Part shown: positions 5,505-59,097 of the stretch, piece after piece
Position numbering within the stretch: position 1 is the stretch's first letter
Layout: the number at the start of each line of letters is the position of its first letter
Source: Alphaproteobacteria bacterium
GTDB lineage: Bacteria; Pseudomonadota; Alphaproteobacteria; Sphingomonadales; Sphingomonadaceae
Assembly: GCA_019239415.1 (NCBI GenBank)
Contig: JAFAZW010000019.1
Span: forward strand, 1-64,000
Direction: 5' to 3'
Length of the DNA: 64,000 nt
Made by a program: the position numbers and the translations under genes
The notes under the pieces: generated by a model
Told to the model about the DNA's origin: nothing
What the model saw: the letters and a program-made list of their open reading frames with translations, nothing else
Database searches by the model: none

Positions 5505-6635
5505 ATGTCGGCAAGGAAGATTGTGATCTCGATCAACGCCGCGTGGAACGTGGTCAACTTCCGCGCCCGGCTGGTCCGCGGCCTCGTCGCGGCCGGCTAT
5601 GAGGTGATCGCGGTCGCGCCGCCGGACGAGCATGTCGAACGGTTGCGGGCGCTCGGCATCGACTACGTGCCCATCGCCATGGACAAGCAGGGCGTATCGC
5701 CGCTGCGCGACCTCGGACTCTTCTGGTCCTACTGGCGAATCCTGCGGCGGCTCGGGGCGGGCGTGTTCCTCGGCTACACGGCCAAGCCCAACATCTACGG
5801 CTCGCTCGCCGCGCGGGCCGCCGGCATGGAGGTGATCAACAACGTCTCGGGGCTCGGCACCGCGTTCATCCGCGGCGGCTGGCTGCGCCGGGTCGTGGAA
5901 ACGCTCTACCGTCTCGCCTTCCGCGCCTCCGCGACGATCTTCTTCCAGAATGCGGACGACCGGGCGCTCTTTCTCTCCCGCCGCATCGTGGGCCCCGAAC
6001 GGGCGCGGCTGCTGCCGGGCTCCGGCATCGACCTCGCGCATTTTCAGCCCGCGCCGCCGCCGACGGGAAGCGGGCCGTTTCGGTTCCTGCTGGTGGCGCG
6101 GATGCTGCGCGACAAGGGCGTGCTCGAATATGTCGAGGCGGCGCGCAGACTGCGGCCGCGCTGGCCGGATGTCCGGTTCCAGCTGCTCGGCCCGGTCGAC
6201 GCGGCGAACCGGACGGCGATCTCCCGGGCGATGGTCGAAGAGTGGGTGCGCGAGGGAAGCGTCGAGTGGCTCGGCGCGGTGGACGACGTCCGCCCACTGC
6301 TGGCGGCGGCGGACTGCGTCGTGCTGCCTTCCTATCGCGAGGGGCTGCCGCGCACTTTGCTCGAAGCGGCGGCGACGGCGCGGCCGCTCATTGCCACCGA
6401 CGTGCCCGGCTGCCGGGACATCGTGCGCGACGGCGTCAACGGCCTGCTCTGCGCGGTCGCCGATGCCGGATCCCTGGCCGCCGCGATGGAACGGATGCTC
6501 GAGGCGGGTCCGGACCAGCGCGCCGCCTGGGGCGCGTCGGCCCGCGCCATCGCCGAGGCCGAATATTCGGACGAGGTCGTCCTCGCCCGCTACCTCGCCG
6601 CGATCGAGGAGGCGCTTCAGTCGGCGGAAAGGTGA
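5505..6635 (+). CDS. GT4 glycosyltransferase of the PglA-like type
   Basis: A 376-residue GT-B enzyme and the only plus-strand member of the exopolysaccharide locus. The N-terminus (ISINAAWNVVNFRARLV) and the internal GYTAKPNIYGSLAAR and NNVSGLGTAFI blocks are characteristic of PglA-like enzymes, which add an N-acetylhexosamine to an undecaprenyl-diphosphate-linked sugar. The donor domain begins at FRFLLVARMLRDKGVLEY. The EX7E signature is visible in SYREGLPRTLLEAAATA (about residue 275). It may act early in repeat-unit assembly. Its 3' end overlaps the convergent ligase-like gene by 19 nt. The exact sugar is inferred from similarity only. Confidence 0.82.
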   Translation: MSARKIVISINAAWNVVNFRARLVRGLVAAGYEVIAVAPPDEHVERLRALGIDYVPIAMDKQGVSPLRDLGLFWSYWRILRRLGAGVFLGYTAKPNIYGSLAARAAGMEVINNVSGLGTAFIRGGWLRRVVETLYRLAFRASATIFFQNADDRALFLSRRIVGPERARLLPGSGIDLAHFQPAPPPTGSGPFRFLLVARMLRDKGVLEYVEAARRLRPRWPDVRFQLLGPVDAANRTAISRAMVEEWVREGSVEWLGAVDDVRPLLAAADCVVLPSYREGLPRTLLEAAATARPLIATDVPGCRDIVRDGVNGLLCAVADAGSLAAAMERMLEAGPDQRAAWGASARAIAEAEYSDEVVLARYLAAIEEALQSAER

Positions 6636-7990
6636 CGCGCGGCCGATGTCCCGTCGCGCCGCGTCCGCGCCTGCACCTTGGCGCGCGGGTCGGCGATGAG
6701 GCCGCAGCACATGGCGAACACCGCGCCGAGCGCGGCCGTGCGCAGCGGATAGTCGACCATCGAATGGGCGAGCATCGCGCCGATCGCGATCGTCGCCGCG
6801 CGCGCGAACGGATCGCCCTCCTCGCGGGTCCACAGGACGAAGGTCCGCCGCAGCCACCACAGGACGAAGGCGAGCACCAGGAGCAGCCCGGGGAGGCCCG
6901 TCTCCAGCGCCAGCTCGAGATAGTCGCCATGGGCGTGGTTCATGAAGAAGCGGCCGACGGCGGCGGGGCTCTCATGCTCGCGATAGACCTGCTGGAAGGT
7001 GCCGATGCCGCTGCCGAAGGGGAGATATTCGCGGGCGGCGCGGGCGGTGATCGCGAAGCTGGTCCGGCGGGAATCCTCGCTGGTGTGCGACCGCTCCCCG
7101 GTGAGGTTGTTGTTGAACGGCGCGGCGAAGGCGCCGGCCACCGACGCCGCCAGCAGCACAGCGAGCAGCGCCGCGCTCCACGCCGGCACCCGCCGCTTGC
7201 GGGACAGCACGAGCAGGATGCTGGCCGCGGTGACCGGCACGGCGAGGCCGGCCCCCGCGATCGACGTCGCGCCGGCGAGGCCGACGACGATCACGGCGCC
7301 GGTGCCGGCGAGCACCACGAGCAGGCCCGACGACTTCTTGAGCGACCGGCCCTTGTTCAGCGCGTTGAGGTGGAGCGCGGCGAGGAAGGGCAGCGTGACC
7401 AGCAGCAGGGTCGCCAGGTGGTTGGCATTCGCGAAGAAGCCGGTCATCGCGCCGGTGTTGGTGATCTGGTAGAAATAGGCGCTGCCATTCTCGCCGCCGG
7501 CGAGCTGCAGCGCGCCGATCGCCACCGATACGATCGTCACGCCGGCCAGCACCCAGGCGAGCCAGCTCGACCGGTAGGCGCCGAGGATGACGATACCCGC
7601 GAGCACCGCCGCGGCCGGCAGCAGCCACAGCGCCGAACCGATCGTCTTGTACGGCTCGAGCGACAGCGGCAGCCACGGCAGGGGCAGGCCGAGCAGGCGG
7701 AAGCCGTCCGCGACCGGAACCCGGCCGGGGAGGTGCGTCCACAGCGCGGGCGGCAGCGGCACGAGCTGGACGGCGAACAGGAGCAGGACGAGCGAGGCAA
7801 GGCCCAGCGCCTGGCGCGACGCGCCGGACAGCGGCGTCGCCCGCCGGCTCGCCGCGGCGACGAACAGCAGCACGAGCGCGGCGAGCTCAAGGCTGAGGTT
7901 GGCCCACCAGCCGGCGGCGCTGGCACCGCCGAGCAGCAGGCAGAGCAGCAGGAAGGCGGGAACGAAGGCGAGGCGGAGGCGGTGGGTCAT
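6617..7990 (-). CDS. O-antigen ligase/polymerase-like (Wzy_C) membrane protein
   Basis: The 457-residue protein has about eleven transmembrane segments and a long periplasmic loop holding SRRTSFAITARAAREYLP and FGSGIGTFQQVYREHES. It carries the family's catalytic-loop landmark as MNHAHGDYLELALETGLPG. This is the O-antigen ligase/Wzy_C superfamily, which either polymerises lipid-linked repeats or transfers the chain to an acceptor. In sphingomonad exopolysaccharide operons such a gene commonly sits beside the Wzc-like kinase. The start ATG overlaps the stop of the upstream gene by 4 nt. It could be the polymerase, a ligase, or an O-glycosylation ligase; sequence alone does not decide. Confidence 0.8.
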   Translation of the reverse strand: MTHRLRLAFVPAFLLLCLLLGGASAAGWWANLSLELAALVLLFVAAASRRATPLSGASRQALGLASLVLLLFAVQLVPLPPALWTHLPGRVPVADGFRLLGLPLPWLPLSLEPYKTIGSALWLLPAAAVLAGIVILGAYRSSWLAWVLAGVTIVSVAIGALQLAGGENGSAYFYQITNTGAMTGFFANANHLATLLLVTLPFLAALHLNALNKGRSLKKSSGLLVVLAGTGAVIVVGLAGATSIAGAGLAVPVTAASILLVLSRKRRVPAWSAALLAVLLAASVAGAFAAPFNNNLTGERSHTSEDSRRTSFAITARAAREYLPFGSGIGTFQQVYREHESPAAVGRFFMNHAHGDYLELALETGLPGLLLVLAFVLWWLRRTFVLWTREEGDPFARAATIAIGAMLAHSMVDYPLRTAALGAVFAMCCGLIADPRAKVQARTRRDGTSAARHLSAD

Positions 7991-9225
7991 CGGCCGCCGC
8001 CCGCGGGCACGATCTGCAGCTTCGAGATCGTCGCACTCTGCTCGGCGGCGACGTCGCCGGGCAGCCCGTCCAGCCGCAGCCACTGCGCCCGGCACCCCGC
8101 GGGCACGGTGAAGGCGGCCCCCAGCGCCCGCGGCGCCGAGGCGATCTCGGTCAGCGCCAGCTGGACGAGGGGAGCCTTGCCGTCCACGCACGCCACCGAC
8201 CAGACGAGCCTGGTGCCCTCGCCCTTGGCGGCGCCCTCGGCCCGCATCTGCAGGCGGTAGGCGCCGGGCTTCAGGATCAGCAGCTGACGCGCGAGCATCC
8301 GCTCGGCGCGGCCGTAATAATCGACCTGCAGCGCATGGTGGGCGCGCTCGGCGACGCCTTCGCTGTCGCTCGCCAGCTCCCAGTTGAACGGCGGGGCGCC
8401 CGGCGCTCCGGCGAAGTCGGCGTCGTAAAGCCCCTTCGCGGCCTCGTCGCCCGGCAGCCTGGTCGCGCTCCGCCACAGCGTGTAGGCGCGCGCCACCTCG
8501 CCGCCCGCGATCAGCTTGCCGAGCAGCACGCTTTGCCATTGCGGCGGGTGGGCCGGGTCGCCGCCGCTGCCGGCGGTGGCGGCGAGCCACAGCACGAGGT
8601 CGGTGTCGCCGCCGCCCGCGAGGGCGGCGAGGGTGAGGTCGCGCAGCTCCGGGTTGCGACGCAGCATCGTTGCGGTACCGGCGCGCGTCTTCGGGTCGCG
8701 CACCAGGCGGGCGATCTCGGGCACGAGCGCTCCCGCGGAATCGGGAATGAGGCGGCTGAGCGCCGCGAGCTCGCCGCCCGCTTCCTCGGCGCGCCCTTGC
8801 CCCAGGTAAAGGTTGAGCAGCAGCAGCCGGGTGAAGCGCCCCCGCGGATTGCGCCGGCGCGCCTCGGTGAGAAGCTGTTCGCTCCGTGCCTCGTCATGCG
8901 CCACCGCGGCCGATACCCCGGCGAGGAGGAAGGGTTCGTCGGCGAGTGCCGCGCGCGCCAAGGCCAATCGCGCCGCCTGCTCCGCGGCGGGACCGACCCG
9001 GCCGTTGCGCAGCGCGAACTCCGTCATGGCCAGTCCCATCGCCGTGCGCGGATCGGACGGGGCGACCCTCGCCACCGCGAACGGATTGTCGCGCGTGAGG
9101 GCGTTGACGACGGCGATCTTCACCGCCCACCAGGCGACGAACAGGATCGCGGCAGCGGCGGCCGCGACGCGGACGGCGCGCGCCGCGCCGAACGCGGGAC
9201 GGCGCCGCCTATGCCTGCTCTTCAC
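7987..9225 (-). CDS. Membrane-anchored helical-repeat (TPR-like) protein of the exopolysaccharide operon
   Basis: About 412 residues starting from a GTG whose codon lies inside the 3' end of the Wzc-like gene (17-nt overlap). The longer open frame upstream only re-reads the Tyr-Gly repeat region of that gene in another frame and was rejected. A basic stretch (KSRHRRRR) precedes one transmembrane helix (about residues 18-37), followed by Ala/Leu/Glu-rich helices typical of TPR-like solenoids. The final 110 residues look like a beta-sandwich (PGAYRLQMRAEG... AQWLRLDGLPG), possibly carbohydrate-binding. It probably sits in the periplasm anchored in the inner membrane and helps assembly or export. 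No enzymatic motif is seen. Confidence 0.65.
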   Translation of the reverse strand: MKSRHRRRRPAFGAARAVRVAAAAAAILFVAWWAVKIAVVNALTRDNPFAVARVAPSDPRTAMGLAMTEFALRNGRVGPAAEQAARLALARAALADEPFLLAGVSAAVAHDEARSEQLLTEARRRNPRGRFTRLLLLNLYLGQGRAEEAGGELAALSRLIPDSAGALVPEIARLVRDPKTRAGTATMLRRNPELRDLTLAALAGGGDTDLVLWLAATAGSGGDPAHPPQWQSVLLGKLIAGGEVARAYTLWRSATRLPGDEAAKGLYDADFAGAPGAPPFNWELASDSEGVAERAHHALQVDYYGRAERMLARQLLILKPGAYRLQMRAEGAAKGEGTRLVWSVACVDGKAPLVQLALTEIASAPRALGAAFTVPAGCRAQWLRLDGLPGDVAAEQSATISKLQIVPAGGGR

Positions 9226-53905: not shown

Positions 53906-54910
53906 ATGCGGATCTTCTGGGACGACAGGCAGCGGCTGCACGCGCCGGCGATGGAGTTGCACAATGGCGGCTTCGTGCCGTTCGCCGAGACCCCGGTCCG
54001 CGCCGATGCGATCCTCGCCGTCCTCGGCCCCGCCGAAGCGCCGCCCGACCTCGGCGAGGCGCCGCTGCGGCGAGTCCATAGCGACGATTATCTGCGCTTC
54101 CTGAGGACGGCCCACGCGGCGTGGCGCGCCGCCGGACGCGACGGAGATGCCGCAGGCTATGTCTGGCCGGTGGTCCGGCGGCGGCCGACGCGGCTGGCGC
54201 GGATCGACGCGCTGCTCGGCCGGTACAGCTACGACGCATCGACACCGGTGGCCGCGGGGACGTGGGAGGCGGCCTACTGGTCCACACAGTCGGCGCTCGC
54301 GGCGACGGGCGCGGTGCTGGACGGCGCGCCCACCGCCTTCGCCCTCTGCCGCCCCCCGGGGCACCATTGCGGCGCCGATTACATGGGCGGCTATTGCTAC
54401 CTGAACGCCGGCGCCGTCGCGGCGGAGGCGGCCGTCGCGGCGGGCGTCCGCCGCGTCGCCATCCTCGACATCGACTATCACCACGGCAACGGCACCCAGG
54501 ACATCTTCTACGCGCGGGGCGACGTGCTGTTCGTCTCGATCCATGCCGATCCGGCGACCGACTATCCCTTCTACTGGGGGCATGCCGACGAAACGGGCGA
54601 AGGCGAGGGCGAGGGCGCGACCCTCAACCTGCCGCTGCCGCGCGGTACCGCCATCGCCACCTACGAGCGGGCGCTCGAGACGGCGCTGGAGCGGATCGCG
54701 ACGTTCGGCGCCGAGCTGCTCGTCTGTTCCTACGGCGCCGATACCTTCGTCGGCGATCCGATCAGCTTCTTCGCGCTCGAGACCGCCGACTATGCCGCGA
54801 TCGGCCGCCGCATCGCGGCCGTCGGGCTGCCGACGGCCGTGCTGATGGAAGGCGGCTATGCCGTCGACACGCTCGGCGCCAACGTCGCCGCCCTCCTGTC
54901 AGGCTTCTGA
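53906..54910 (+). CDS. Histone-deacetylase-family / acetylpolyamine amidohydrolase-like protein
   Basis: A 334-residue arginase-fold zinc deacetylase. The active-site blocks are RPPGHHCGADYMGGYCYLN (tandem His), ILDIDYHHGNGTQDIFY (Zn Asp and His), VSIHADPATDYPFYWG and CSYGADTFVGDP (second Zn Asp), and MEGGYAVDTLG (catalytic Tyr). The FYWGHADETGEGEGEG loop is that of acetylpolyamine amidohydrolases. It would deacetylate acetylputrescine, acetylspermidine or similar. Monocistronic; its 3' end overlaps the convergent sterol-desaturase gene by 12 nt. Confidence 0.9.
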   Translation: MRIFWDDRQRLHAPAMELHNGGFVPFAETPVRADAILAVLGPAEAPPDLGEAPLRRVHSDDYLRFLRTAHAAWRAAGRDGDAAGYVWPVVRRRPTRLARIDALLGRYSYDASTPVAAGTWEAAYWSTQSALAATGAVLDGAPTAFALCRPPGHHCGADYMGGYCYLNAGAVAAEAAVAAGVRRVAILDIDYHHGNGTQDIFYARGDVLFVSIHADPATDYPFYWGHADETGEGEGEGATLNLPLPRGTAIATYERALETALERIATFGAELLVCSYGADTFVGDPISFFALETADYAAIGRRIAAVGLPTAVLMEGGYAVDTLGANVAALLSGF

Positions 54911-55735
54911 CGCGAACGACGACGGCGCCGCCTCGCCCGCAAATGGGGCACGCAGCTGGTGGAGGAAGCTGGATGCGCCCACGTCGGCGGCATCGCCGAG
55001 GCCGAAACGGGTCTCGCGCAGCTCCGCCTGCGGCTTCTCGCGATAGGTGCCGAACACGCGATCCCACAGGGTCAGCACCTCCCCGTAATTGCTGTCGGTG
55101 TCGGCGCGGCGACTCGAATGATGGATATGGTGGACGGCGGGGGTGACGAGCAGCCGGCGGAGCAGCCTGTCGGCCGGCTCCGGGACCGCGAGATTGGCGT
55201 GGTCCCACAAGGTGAAGACGATGCCGACGGCCTCGTAGACGGCGAGCACGCGCGGATCGAGCCCGCACGCGACGGTCACCACCGCGTAGAAGGGGGCGAC
55301 GATCGCGAGCTCGAGCGGGTGGTTGCGAAACCCCGTGGAGAGATCGATGCGCGTGTCGCTGTGGTGGACGCGGTGGACCCGCCAAAGCAGCGGCACGGCA
55401 TGGGAGAGGCGATGCATCACATAGGTGGCGAGGCTGCGCACGAGGACGGTGGCCACGGCGGCGGCGAGGAACGGAACGGCGAGATGGTTCATCAGGCCGA
55501 TGCCATGCGCGGCGGCCCATTGCGCCGGCACGACCGTCGAGACCGGCACGGCGGCGCCGATCGCCGCGTTGATGACGCCGAAGCCGACATTGCCGGCAAT
55601 CCGCCCGCCCGGCTCCTCGCCGCCATCGTGGAGCGGACGCCAGAGCTCCGCCGCGGCGAACAGACAGAGGATCGCCCAGAAGCCGAAAAACAGCAGCCAC
55701 GGCGCGCTGCCGCCCCGGATCAGCGCGCTCAGCAT
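54899..55735 (-). CDS. Sterol desaturase/fatty-acid hydroxylase family membrane protein
   Basis: A 278-residue integral membrane di-iron protein with about four helices. Histidine motifs in order are YVMHRLSHAVP (H-x3-H), WRVHRVHHSDTRID (H-x2-HH), and VHHIHHSSRRADTDSNYG (H-x2-HH). These bind the diiron centre of the family. It hydroxylates or desaturates a lipid such as a fatty acid, hopanoid or carotenoid. The ATG choice places the start just before the first helix; upstream in-frame sequence overlaps the exosortase-substrate gene on the other strand. Confidence 0.9.
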   Translation of the reverse strand: MLSALIRGGSAPWLLFFGFWAILCLFAAAELWRPLHDGGEEPGGRIAGNVGFGVINAAIGAAVPVSTVVPAQWAAAHGIGLMNHLAVPFLAAAVATVLVRSLATYVMHRLSHAVPLLWRVHRVHHSDTRIDLSTGFRNHPLELAIVAPFYAVVTVACGLDPRVLAVYEAVGIVFTLWDHANLAVPEPADRLLRRLLVTPAVHHIHHSSRRADTDSNYGEVLTLWDRVFGTYREKPQAELRETRFGLGDAADVGASSFLHQLRAPFAGEAAPSSFASEA

Positions 55736-55826
55736 GGACGCTGCGCCGCACCAGCGGCATTGACAGACGCGGATCGGCTTCGCATCAGCGGTGTCTAGCG
55801 CGCCAAACTCAGGTAAGGGAGCCCTC

Positions 55827-56006
55827 ATGATCTCGAAATTGATCCGCGCCGGCGCGGCTTGCGCCTTCTTCGCTCTCGTCGCCACCGACGCCGCCTCGGC
55901 AGGGATCATCCTCCCGACTCCGGGCCCGATGATCGGCGCCGGAGCACCTGCGCTCGCTCTCTTCGGGGCCGGCTATTGGCTGTTGCGCCGCCGCCGGCGC
56001 GGCTGA
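55827..56006 (+). CDS. 59-residue putative exosortase substrate (PEP-CTERM-like tail)
   Basis: The protein has an N-terminal signal peptide (residues 1-25, cleaved after ASA). A proline motif ILPTPGP (28-34) follows, then one transmembrane helix (36-53) and an Arg cluster RRRRR (54-58). Proline motif, helix and basic end in this order make a classical PEP-CTERM-type sorting tail. After signal and tail removal fewer than ten residues would remain, so it carries almost no cargo. The exosortase gene lies 11 nt downstream. TTGACA at 55760 may be its -35 but the -10 is weak. It may be a peptide signal, a dedicated minimal substrate, or an enzyme partner. Confidence 0.65.
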   Translation: MISKLIRAGAACAFFALVATDAASAGIILPTPGPMIGAGAPALALFGAGYWLLRRRRRG

Positions 56007-56017
56007 CCTCCCGGGAA

Positions 56018-56839
56018 TTGACCGCATCCGCCGCCGCGCCGCTCGCGCGGCCGCAGCTGTTTTTCTGGCTCATCCTCGTCGCGGCGCTGAACGGCTTCGC
56101 GGGCACGGCGATGCGGATCGTTCCGGAGCGGGGCCTCACTTACGCGCTGTTCGAGCTGTTCGGAATCAGCGCGATCGTCTGGGTCGCGCTCGCCGCCTGC
56201 CTCGATGTGCTCCGCAACGCGCCGGCCGAGCCTCTGCGGCCAGGCGATCGGGTGGTCGCCGCTGGTGTCGCGCTCGCCGCCCTTGCGCCGATGGCGACCG
56301 CGAGCGCACTGGCGCTGACCGGTCTCGGCGCCTGGATGATCGCGACCGCGCGGTCCGGATCGTCCATCCGACGGGCCGGCACCATCGCCCTTGCCATGAC
56401 GGCTACTTTACTCTGGGGGCGGCTGCTCCTCGCGCTGTTCAGCGGACCGATGCTCGCCGCCGACAGCTGGCTGGTGGGAACGCTGACCGGCGCACCGCAG
56501 GCGGCCAATCTCATCGCGCTGCCGGTCGCCGACGGGGCGCGCATCGCCGTCGCGCCAGGCTGCTCCTCCTGGCAGGGCATGTCGCTCGCTCTGCTGTTCT
56601 GGGTGACCGTCAACCAATATTTCCGGGTGCCGTTCGGCTGGCGGGCCGCCGCCTGGTGCGCCTTGGCGCTCGCCGCGACCGTCGCAATCAACGTGCTGCG
56701 GATCGCCGCGATGGTCCGCTTTCCCGCCCATATCGCCGAGATCCACCACGGCTATGGCTGGCACCTCGCCATGTGGTCGACCCTCGTCGCGGTAGCGGCG
56801 ATCTGTCTCTGGGGCGCGCGGCGTGAAGTCTTCCGCTAG
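56018..56839 (+). CDS. Exosortase-family transpeptidase/protease
   Basis: A 273-residue polytopic membrane protein (seven or eight helices). The catalytic triad of the exosortase/archaeosortase family is visible: Cys182 in VAPGCSSWQG, Arg228 in INVLRIAAM and His243/244 in EIHHGYGWHLAMW. It should cleave a PEP-CTERM-like tail at the outer face of the inner membrane. The TTG start (56018) is chosen because it precedes the first helix and follows the small substrate gene. The family subtype cannot be named from sequence alone; it is not the standard EpsH/XrtA locus, as no PEP-CTERM/EPS accessory genes are adjacent. Confidence 0.88.
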   Translation: MTASAAAPLARPQLFFWLILVAALNGFAGTAMRIVPERGLTYALFELFGISAIVWVALAACLDVLRNAPAEPLRPGDRVVAAGVALAALAPMATASALALTGLGAWMIATARSGSSIRRAGTIALAMTATLLWGRLLLALFSGPMLAADSWLVGTLTGAPQAANLIALPVADGARIAVAPGCSSWQGMSLALLFWVTVNQYFRVPFGWRAAAWCALALAATVAINVLRIAAMVRFPAHIAEIHHGYGWHLAMWSTLVAVAAICLWGARREVFR

Positions 56840-57299
56840 CCTCGGCTTCGCCGCTCTGCTCGCCGCGAGCCTCGCCGGCAAGCTCGCCGCCAATGTCGCG
56901 CCGCCCGGCCCCGACCCGCGGCTATTCGACGCCGCCGCGGCCGCGATGCTGCGCGAGGCGGGCTTCGCCGTCTCCACGGAGCGGCGCGGATTCGGCACCT
57001 TGCTCATCGCCCGCCGCCCAGCCTGCGCGGTCATCGTCGCCGAATATGATCCGCACGGCACGTTCGCGGAGCGCCATCGGGAACTTGCCGCCGCGCTCGG
57101 GCCATTGCGCTACGCCTGGCGCGGACGCGTGTTCGACGATGTCCCGAAAGTCGCCGCGCTCACGAGCTTCTACGTCTGGCGTGAGCTGCGGCGCGTCGGC
57201 GTCGCCGCACCCCGCGCCCCGCTCGCGGCTTGGGCGGCGGCCCCCCGCTGCGACATCTCCCGAATCGACTGGCGCCGGCTCGCCAGCCTTCCCGCATGA
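56823..57299 (+). CDS. Probable exosortase-associated exported protein, unknown function
   Basis: A 158-residue protein whose GTG start overlaps the exosortase stop by 17 nt. It has an N-terminal hydrophobic helix (ASLGFAALLAASLAGKLAAN) and a soluble domain of about 130 residues with alternating strands (GFGTLLIARRPACAVIVAEYD, LRYAWRGRVFDDVPK) and two Cys. I do not recognise a family; it does not look like EpsI. The operon position suggests a partner of the exosortase. Confidence 0.65.
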   Translation: MKSSASLGFAALLAASLAGKLAANVAPPGPDPRLFDAAAAAMLREAGFAVSTERRGFGTLLIARRPACAVIVAEYDPHGTFAERHRELAAALGPLRYAWRGRVFDDVPKVAALTSFYVWRELRRVGVAAPRAPLAAWAAAPRCDISRIDWRRLASLPA

Positions 57300-57337: not shown

Positions 57338-57901
57338 ATGCTGCGCCCGCCGACTCGGACCCTCTTCGCCCTGCTCGCCGCCGCCTGCTCGTCCTCGGCC
57401 CCGGCCGCCGGCACGCTCGTCGCCGACCGGCCGGAGATGGCGAAGGCGCAGATGCTGCTGGTGTCGAGTCCGGCAATGTCCCCAGGAGCGCCGATCGCGC
57501 TCGGCTACAGCGCTTATGGCAGGAACGAGCTGCCGCCGCTCAGCTGGTCCGCGCTGCCGGCCGGAACGCAGAGCCTGGCGATCGTCGTCGAGGATCCCGA
57601 TGCCTCGTCAGCGCAGCCCTTCGTCCACTGGACCGCCTGGAACATCGCCCCGTCGGCCCACGGCCTCCCGGAAGGCCTCGCCGGCGCGGTCCAGGGCAGG
57701 AACGGCAAGGGGACGAACGGCTGGTGGGGTCCCCACCCCTCCGACGGCAAGCTGCACCATTATCATTTCCAGCTCTTCGCGCTCGACACCAAGCTCGCCG
57801 TCCCCGCCGCGGCCGGCCGCGAGGCGCTGGCCGAGGCGATGGCAGGCCACGTGCTCGGCAAGGGAAAGCTGGTCGGCACGTTCATCAAGCCGAAGGGGTA
57901 G
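57338..57901 (+). CDS. YbhB/YbcL-like (PEBP) exported protein
   Basis: A 187-residue protein with a signal/lipoprotein-like leader (TLFALLAAACSSSAPAAG) and the PEBP fold. Landmarks are LPPLSWSALPAGTQSLAIVVEDPD, VHWTAWNIAP, and NGWWGPHPSDGKLHHYHFQLFALD. This is the Raf-kinase-inhibitor-like family, of uncertain function in bacteria. The start at 57338 gives a good leader; ATG 57296 overlaps the previous stop and is possible. The Cys in LAAACSS may be a lipidation site. Confidence 0.88.
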   Translation: MLRPPTRTLFALLAAACSSSAPAAGTLVADRPEMAKAQMLLVSSPAMSPGAPIALGYSAYGRNELPPLSWSALPAGTQSLAIVVEDPDASSAQPFVHWTAWNIAPSAHGLPEGLAGAVQGRNGKGTNGWWGPHPSDGKLHHYHFQLFALDTKLAVPAAAGREALAEAMAGHVLGKGKLVGTFIKPKG

Positions 57902-57973: not shown

Positions 57974-58165
57974 CTACGAGTCTCGATCCCCGCGGGCGTC
58001 CTCCTCGCGCTTCACCTTCGTGCCCAGAGCCGCCAGGATCATCGTCAGCAGGGCGGCGACGAAGGTCTTGGTGCCGAAGCCGTGGCGGCCCGCCTCAGCC
58101 AGGAAGGCGATGCCGAAGAGGGCGGCGGCGATGAAGTAGAAGATCGACTGCCGCCGCCGGTCCAT
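57974..58165 (-). CDS. Small two-helix membrane protein, unknown function
   Basis: A 63-residue protein with two hydrophobic helices ([19 protein letters not shown] and [15 protein letters not shown]) and an Arg/Glu/Asp-rich tail ([12 protein letters not shown]). The ATG overlaps the etfA stop by 1 nt (TGATG), so it is coupled to etfBA. No named family is recognised. It may be a minor membrane-associated partner or a passenger gene. Confidence 0.65.
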
Positions 58166-59097
58166 CACAGTTTCTCGGTCAGCTCGGGGACGATCTTGAA
58201 CAGGTCGCCGACCAGGCCGAGGTCCGCGACCTGGAAGATCGGCGCCTCCTCATCCTTGTTGATCGCGACGATGAGCTTGGAATCCTTCATCCCGGCGAGG
58301 TGCTGGATCGCGCCGGATATGCCGATGGCGACGTAGCATTCCGGCGCGACGATCTTGCCGGTCTGGCCGACCTGATAGTCGTTCGGCACATAGCCCGCAT
58401 CCACCGCGGCGCGGCTGGCGCCGACGGCGGCGCCCAGCTTGTCGGCGAGCGGCTCGATATATTGATGGAAGGCGTCGGACGAGCCAAGCGCCCGTCCGCC
58501 CGAAACGATGATCTTGGCGCTGGTCAGCTCGGGCCGCTCCGACGCCGCGATCTCGGCGCCGACGAAGCTCGACAGCCCCGCGTCGCCGCCGCCTGCATAG
58601 GGTTCGACGACGCCGGAGCCGCCCTCGGCCGCCGCCTTCTCGAACGCGGTTCCGCGCACCGTCAGCACCTTCTTGGCGTCGGACGATTTCACGGTCGCGA
58701 TGGCGTTGCCGGCGTAGATGGGCCGCACGAACGTGTCCGGACCCTCGATGGCGATGACGTCGCTCACCTGCATCACGTCGAGCAGCGCCGCGACCCGCGG
58801 CGCCACATTCTTGCCCGTCGTCGTCGCGGCCGCGACGAAATAATCGCAATGGTCGTTGACGATGGCGACGGCGACCGGCGCGACGTTCTCGGCGAGCTGG
58901 TGCGCGTAGGCGCCGCCGTCGGCGACGTGGACGCGGGCGACGCCGGCGATCTTCGCCGCCGCCTCGGCCACGGCGCCGACCCCTTCGCCGGCGACCAGCG
59001 CGTGGACCTCGCCCAGCTTCGCCGCCGCGGTGACGGCGGACAGGGTGGCGTCCTTGAGATGCCCCCCTTCATGTTCGACGAGAACCAGCGCGATCAT
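58165..59097 (-). CDS. etfA: Electron transfer flavoprotein alpha subunit
   Basis: A 310-residue protein. The N-terminus reads [20 protein letters not shown]. The C-terminal FAD domain has the ETF-alpha signature [20 protein letters not shown] and [22 protein letters not shown]. With EtfB it carries electrons from acyl-CoA and other dehydrogenases to ETF-quinone oxidoreductase. The start overlaps the etfB stop by 4 nt (ATGA). Confidence 0.97.

Follow-up and report, generated by a model that had tools for sequence, protein, structure and literature searches.

A Putative Dedicated Exosortase System with a Nearly Cargo-Free Substrate and a Divergent FA_hydroxylase Gene in Sphingomonads

A 64,000-nt window of DNA from a sphingomonad genome (contig JAFAZW010000019.1), the whole stretch analyzed here and the frame for all coordinates given without a locus handle, contains a four-gene exosortase set that, judged from its sequences, is a variant of the exosortase systems that is dedicated, cargo-less and tied to a hydroxylase gene. 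On the plus strand the set comprises a gene for a cargo-less small protein of 59 amino acids (aa; 55827-56006), an exosortase family enzyme of 273 aa read from a TTG start that was chosen in this analysis (56018-56839), and an exosortase-associated exported or membrane-anchored protein of 158 aa with a GTG start (56823-57299). The preliminary description of this DNA had these three open reading frames (ORFs) at the positions where we find them, and its three-gene set is here extended by a divergent gene on the minus strand for a membrane enzyme of the FA_hydroxylase (PF04116) family (54899-55735). In our judgement the small protein is probably the exosortase's own substrate, an assessment that spans all readings in which it is processed. 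The reading that we tentatively prefer, at somewhat short of even chances, is that the four genes form a dedicated exosortase system that makes a short lipid-linked stub, with the hydroxylase acting on the lipid. Numbers beginning with L and G are the locus and genome handles of this analysis.

The small protein has a predicted signal peptide of 25 residues (55827-55901), assigned as in the other proteins by an A-x-A rule and ending in D-A-A-S-A, followed by the residual stub GIILPT (55902-55919), which is its entire cargo, and by a sorting tail (55920-56003) of PGP and a further 25 residues that comprise a helix and a basic end within the final RRRRRG. The earlier estimate that fewer than ten residues remain between signal and tail agrees with the six found between the rule-predicted A-x-A cut and P-x-P. 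This anatomy is fixed in length across the 18 cargo-less proteins, all of which have the A-x-A end, the substrate layout of PEP-CTERM proteins (signal peptide, Pro-x-Pro, helix and basic C-terminus) and 25-26 residues after P-x-P. The distance from the last A-x-A to P-x-P is 4-6 residues in 17 of the 18, the exception (L018) having 1 residue by the A-x-A rule and 6 if cut at AWA, and both prolines are present in 20/20 aligned tails. No Pfam or NCBIfam model matched the small protein above a cut-off. The PEP_CTERM model TIGR02595 gave no match to it at E up to 10 and matched one of three relatives at 12.3 bits, below the cut-off of 16.

Conservation of the set was evaluated at 17 sphingomonad loci in 16 genomes (the window, L018, L030-L039, L104-L107 and L109), the label following from those genus and family members that are named. 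Enzyme, partner and tail protein occur together at all 17, and the tail protein next to the exosortase is cargo-less at 14 of them. Four of these loci (L104-L107) were found by exosortase homology alone, and a cargo-less protein adjoins the enzyme in 4/4; the same holds for L109, which was flagged by an exosortase-family match and a weak tail match. Compared with its counterpart in the nearest relative (G004), the small gene of the window differs in its final 34 codons at 11 synonymous and 6 non-synonymous positions. A chance ORF was considered for the small gene and is ruled out by conservation at independent loci together with selection on the tail.

Selection can be seen in one genome, G141, in which four tandem cargo-less small proteins lie upstream of a single exosortase (L030, G141:C45, 7811-8574) with near-identical tails and different stubs. 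Summed over the six pairwise comparisons, the differences are 62 synonymous and 22 non-synonymous in tail codons, 4 and 18 in stub codons, and 33 and 67 in signal peptide codons; these counts are descriptive only because the six pairs are not independent. The pattern is that of purifying selection acting on the tail of this array and not on its stub or signal peptide. Since the stub drifts, nothing points to a product whose role depends on its sequence, with the reservation that this is a single array. The preliminary description had offered a peptide signal, a surface anchor tag or an enzyme-regulating pseudo-substrate. The sequence-specific signal fares poorly here, whereas a tag, a stub joined to lipid and a regulator would all suit the data.

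A secreted peptide signal or effector, in which the exosortase would free a peptide of 7-9 residues to act outside the cell, is accordingly given a low probability. The fixed short length would suit it, and stubs that diverge within a tandem array recall precursor families with variable cores, but the same lack of conservation in the array counts against it. Moreover, no receptor or peptide-transport gene recurs by eye in the gene lists (which are without L102, L103 and parts of L101 and L104), and this explanation has no part for the FA_hydroxylase. ABC-ATPase-like proteins (group F8) were observed near the set at three loci.

The small gene and the exosortase gene form one apparent operon, and the exosortase and partner genes share 17 bases of overlap. 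The enzyme reaches 27.4 bits against TIGR04178 (exo_archaeo, cut-off 23), consistent with the exosortase assignment in the preliminary description. It matched no other NCBIfam model at E up to 10, and no cut-off of a named subfamily was reached. Five of six relatives of the enzyme pass TIGR04178, the sixth (L033) scoring 18.6, and the named exosortase subfamily models match these six only far below cut-off. Of the residues named in the preliminary description, C182 (56561-56563), R228 (56699-56701) and H243 (56744-56746) are invariant in 12/12 aligned enzymes, and H244, named as an alternative to H243, is not; the three invariant residues are what we take to be the exosortase active site. The predicted structure (mean predicted local distance difference test score, pLDDT, 83.9) is composed almost entirely of long helices, which is consistent with a polytopic membrane protein. 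A Foldseek comparison of this model with solved structures gave nothing at E <=0.001, and the best VIA-align result (Z 7.3 to helical proteins over 84-96 residues, root-mean-square deviation (rmsd) 3.5-5.8) was not taken as an answer.

The third, partner protein was described earlier as of unknown family, and indeed it has no Pfam or NCBIfam match up to E 10. Two cysteines, C68 and C143, are invariant in 12/12 members. The protein is present at 17/17 sphingomonad loci and was detected at only 7/12 outgroup loci. On a Microvirga ossetica plasmid (L040, 4201-6317) the exosortase and partner profiles both match one 479-aa ORF, which is likely an exosortase-partner fusion. The partner model (mean pLDDT 81.9) gave no Foldseek match at E <=0.001, and the best VIA-align result covered part of the model (Z 5.3 to spermine synthase, 72-75 residues, rmsd 2.8-3.1) and was not taken as an answer. 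Sequence searches of solved structures returned nothing useful. Identity with EpsI was considered and is not supported by sequence, as no EpsI/DUF3485 match was found and hhalign against the EpsI domain of the window's own genome gave 0.1%.

Pairing between tail and enzyme is close to one-to-one. In the window's own genome of 3.49 Mb, the tail profile scores 57.8 bits at this locus and at most 13.9 bits elsewhere (E up to 10), and in the 11 other cassette genomes (E up to 0.5) true tails occur only beside such an exosortase, apart from an orphan copy in G141. We inspected 27 weaker matches, 4 in the own genome and 23 in the others; one is a true tail (L070, the second cassette of Novosphingobium sp. 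MW5), and none of the remaining 26 shows the arrangement of P-x-P, terminal helix and basic end. Among them, five proteins end at most 15 residues from a 10-18-bit match without the tail layout (L062, L063, L065, L076, L148), and three matches (L068, L150, L151) were not recovered at their original score, the open frames around them measuring 631, 792 and 660 aa. Within these 12 genomes, other proteins with the same tail are thereby ruled out as candidates by inspection. Of the 397 family genomes, 10 have a tail match; 8 of these are the same genomes that hold the exosortase, and the two extra matches lie inside prepilin-peptidase-like proteins (a name read from their sequence); the tail and exosortase counts are taken to come from the same sample, the sizes being equal and the listed handles in agreement.

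Since no second protein with this tail turned up in the own genome, the pairing appears to be a dedicated one. The preliminary description had named two findings that would speak against an exosortase devoted to a nearly cargo-free substrate, a neighbour that is not conserved and larger proteins bearing the same tail. The neighbour proved to be conserved, and no larger same-tail protein was found elsewhere in the 12 cassette genomes. The exception to single-target pairing is G141, with its four adjacent tail copies and a fifth on another contig.

These results bear on two further explanations. The tail might serve as a pseudo-substrate or regulator that only occupies the exosortase (or the hydroxylase) and tunes its activity, with nothing useful released. 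Retention of the tail and not of the remainder of the small protein is in keeping with this role, as is the apparent operon with the enzyme, but no other same-tail substrate that could be regulated was found in the 12 genomes, the four tandem copies and the fifth in G141 look like a product made in quantity, and relatives of the enzyme adjoin proteins in which a tail of this kind is attached to real cargo. We regard this explanation as unlikely, if less so than the others set against our preferred reading. Ordinary sorting with hidden substrates, in which PEP-CTERM proteins with a different tail are also processed and the small protein is a minor client, seems to us improbable to the same degree as the secreted peptide. 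The own genome does encode three VPAP-type PEP-CTERM proteins above cut-off, two with only ~20 residues of cargo. However, a separate XrtA-type exosortase with an EpsI domain serves this genome, each of the 11 other cassette genomes has a stronger, long-frame exosortase match elsewhere, and the tail profile does not pick up the VPAP tails at E up to 10. The two very short PEP-CTERM proteins (L008 and L010; own genome, C83 and C11) have Cys/Ser/Gly-rich cargo and are probably clients of exosortase A.

The divergent gene encodes a clear FA_hydroxylase family member (PF04116 at 108.6 bits, cut-off 31), in which H108, H112, H121, H124, H125, H202, H205 and H206 are invariant in 12/12 members. Its start codon was chosen in this analysis, the open frame extending to 55909. 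Between the two divergent start codons lies a spacer of 91 bases (55736-55826, unstranded), presumably a shared promoter region, in which a promoter and terminator scan gave no sigma-70-type match; the divergent starts are without a convincing signal. This gene is divergent to the small gene at every one of the 13 cargo-less loci whose flanks could be read; at the remaining one (L030) the contig ends. Within the fetched stretches of 4.9-15 kb it was found at 0/3 cargo loci and 0/12 outgroup loci, the 4.9-kb stretch of L098 covering little of its flanks. A genome-wide comparison, made without G002-G004 and the outgroup genomes, found homologues above 200 bits in 10/10 cargo-less genomes versus 0/3 cargo genomes, in which the best score of 123 bits is at the level of background paralogues. 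At these loci and in these genomes the hydroxylase gene follows the cargo-less state.

The association extends to a locus apart from the enzyme. At L108 (G141:C19, 3976-5032) an orphan cargo-less small gene is divergent to an FA_hydroxylase gene, no exosortase gene was called in the 9-kb stretch, and the exosortase of G141 lies on another contig. Such pairing away from the exosortase would fit a two-helix membrane protein whose N-terminus is never cut and which acts as a hairpin subunit of the hydroxylase or the exosortase, and the short turn with Pro between its two hydrophobic segments would suit that shape. A hairpin does not need the correctly spaced A-x-A found in 18/18 proteins, though, and in the cargo-bearing relatives the first segment ends alike and is followed by a long hydrophilic stretch; an unprocessed protein is the least probable of the explanations weighed here.

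The cargo-bearing relatives place the cargo-less state in context. Three sphingomonad loci of one clade (L031, L032 and L033) have tail proteins with 75, 57 and 106 Gly-rich residues of cargo. Outside the family, Microvirga (L040) and G530 (L095) have 32-34 residues; the two tail proteins encoded at L040 measure 89 and up to 97 aa, and their short cargo is Gly-rich. These relatives with low-complexity cargo indicate that the cargo-less state is a variant and is not fixed by the enzyme family. A Gly/Asn-rich VPGP protein of 101 aa lies nearby at L096, and at the distant L097, which is without a hydroxylase and is unlabelled on the tree, an opposite-strand 57-aa ORF matches the tail weakly (18.1 bits) and lacks a clear A-x-A. 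In a tree of 29 exosortases, the sphingomonad enzymes form a clade of 17 rows (support 98/97) that combines the cargo-less state with a hydroxylase, save in the nested clade of L031-L033 (support 100/99), in which both traits are reversed. Cargo and hydroxylase each change twice on this tree, on the same branches by eye.

Taken with the known superfamily, these features suggest the following route for the preferred reading of a lipid-linked stub. Sec would export the small preprotein, and signal peptidase would cleave it behind A-x-A; the mature protein that remains, 32-35 residues long, would be anchored through its C-terminal helix. Using Cys182, Arg228 and His243, the exosortase would cut near P-x-P and transfer a short Pro-rich stub of 7-9 residues to what is most likely a membrane lipid acceptor, in the manner of archaeosortase A. 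The exported partner may assist the exosortase, and the FA_hydroxylase-superfamily enzyme may modify the lipid acceptor or the finished conjugate. Instead of a sorted protein, the system would yield a very short lipopeptide at the surface or a lipid tag. Processing of the small protein by the exosortase is likely on the sequence evidence. We infer cleavage and transfer from the anatomy and from knowledge of the superfamily, and a lipid acceptor from the linkage to the hydroxylase and from archaeal precedent; the roles given to partner and hydroxylase are likewise proposed. For the archaeal case, PMC7157517 reports that in Methanosarcina the artA gene stands in synteny with pssA and pssD, that loss of pssA in Haloferax volcanii abolished lipid attachment, and that loss of either pssA or pssD blocked cleavage of an ArtA substrate.

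Several points weigh against a dedicated lipid-linked system of this kind. Members of the FA_hydroxylase family act on many substrates, and the substrate cannot be read from the match of all 12 hydroxylase members to OlsE (ornithine lipid hydroxylase, NF052566), which is uninformative because it is common to all ten control PF04116 proteins (8 background proteins and 2 close paralogues); the window's enzyme scores 89.9 bits against this model, short of the equivalog cut-off of 475. An OlsE-like function was dropped for this lack of specificity. The close hydroxylase paralogues L122 and L123 have no adjoining small gene. The Gly-rich cargo at L031-L033 shows that close relatives do without the cargo-less design, the co-change of cargo and hydroxylase amounts to two branches only, the tree is rooted at its drawing midpoint, and among the 12 outgroup loci the cargo state is known for 2 and the absence of the hydroxylase is local only. 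As the tail profiles were trained on tails beside exosortases, finding them there is circular, and only their absence elsewhere is independent. Free drift of the stub in the G141 array belongs here as well.

A more far-reaching version holds that an exosortase was recruited to the making of a small molecule, a ribosomal lipopeptide of ~7-9 residues joined at its C-terminus to a hydroxylated membrane lipid with the help of hydroxylase and partner, and that cargo loss and hydroxylase gain were one switch, undone together in one clade. We consider this doubtful, clearly more so than the preferred reading. The acceptor lipid in sphingomonads would possibly be a sphingolipid or an aminolipid. To our knowledge the acceptor to which bacterial exosortases attach their substrates is still open, and a single tiny substrate encoded next to a gene of lipid-modifying type makes this set nearly as small a test case as could be wished for. 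Mass spectrometry can find a product this short (fewer than ten residues) whole, adduct included. If the adduct were a lipid altered by the hydroxylase, the acceptor would be named and the use of an exosortase in lipopeptide synthesis shown.

The set shares parts with several described systems, each compared here through the portions of the sources available. With exosortase/PEP-CTERM sorting (Haft 2006, PMC1569441) it has in common the superfamily membrane enzyme and the substrate plan of signal peptide, Pro-x-Pro, helix and basic C-terminus. It differs in its one dedicated cargo-free substrate with a tail unmatched by the PEP_CTERM model, in an enzyme above no named subfamily cut-off, and in its adjoining FA_hydroxylase gene, with no exopolysaccharide cluster in the window. 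As with archaeosortase A and PssA/PssD (PMC7157517), a sorting enzyme gene stands beside a lipid-metabolism gene. In that system, however, ArtA has several large substrates that become lipid-anchored, whereas here the lipid-type gene belongs to the FA_hydroxylase family and anchoring to lipid is only proposed. Rhombosortase and GlyGly-CTERM pairs (PMC3237569) likewise have enzyme and single target side by side and are termed dedicated, but the enzyme is an unrelated rhomboid serine protease and no cargo-less target is described in the part available. XrtF and its adjacent partner in Flavobacterium johnsoniae (PMC10936215, PMC12188702), likened to the present set by description only, resemble it as a divergent exosortase with one adjacent system protein and with substrates predicted to be unlike PEP-CTERM; the available text describes neither a cargo-less substrate nor a hydroxylase. 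A lipid-amino-acid enzyme linked to an exosortase system is of acyltransferase type by the title of its report, in contrast to the hydroxylase here. The literature searched contained no paper linking an exosortase with a sterol desaturase or fatty acid hydroxylase, and none treating an exosortase together with PEP-CTERM proteins in Sphingomonas; a 2012 J Bacteriol exosortase paper lay outside its scope and may mention cargo-less substrates.

Relatives of the enzyme are sparsely distributed, occurring in 5/26 genomes of the genus, 8/397 of the family (E 0.001), 8/396 of the order (E 1e-8) and 9/385 of the class (E 1e-8), in overlapping samples that each include the own genome. Named carriers are Sphingomonas parva 17J27-24, Sphingosinicella sp. 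YJ22, Novosphingobium sp. MW5 and one alphaproteobacterial metagenome-assembled genome, and plasmid-borne relatives occur in Microvirga ossetica, Rhizobium gallicum and Rhizobium sp. WL3. Novosphingobium sp. MW5 has a second complete four-gene set (L109, G436, 5734-8024) ~51 kb from the first, with the tail motif P-T-P-E-P. In the window an etfA gene lies downstream of the set (58165-59097), and an etfA homologue is within the fetched stretch at 8/17 sphingomonad loci from three genera (the window, L034, L036-L039, L104 and L107); other loci are placed elsewhere, L018 being on the dnaX side. This shared position, together with presence in 8 of 397 family genomes, suggests either an old locus that was often lost or repeated gain.

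On the Rhizobium sp. WL3 plasmid (L042, 4947-6312) a relative of the enzyme, annotated as a hypothetical protein, stands amid annotated glycosyltransferase genes; L041 and L099 resemble this locus by eye, and no substrate was found adjoining these three. Directly after the set in the window is a phosphatidylethanolamine-binding-family (PF01161) gene with a signal-like N-terminus (57338-57901), which by eye is also present in the nearest relative (L002) but missing from Sphingomonas parva, whose third gene directly borders etfA. On the other side, a histone-deacetylase-family gene (53906-54910) adjoins the hydroxylase gene, and a homologue lies within the fetched stretch at 7/17 sphingomonad loci, the window included.

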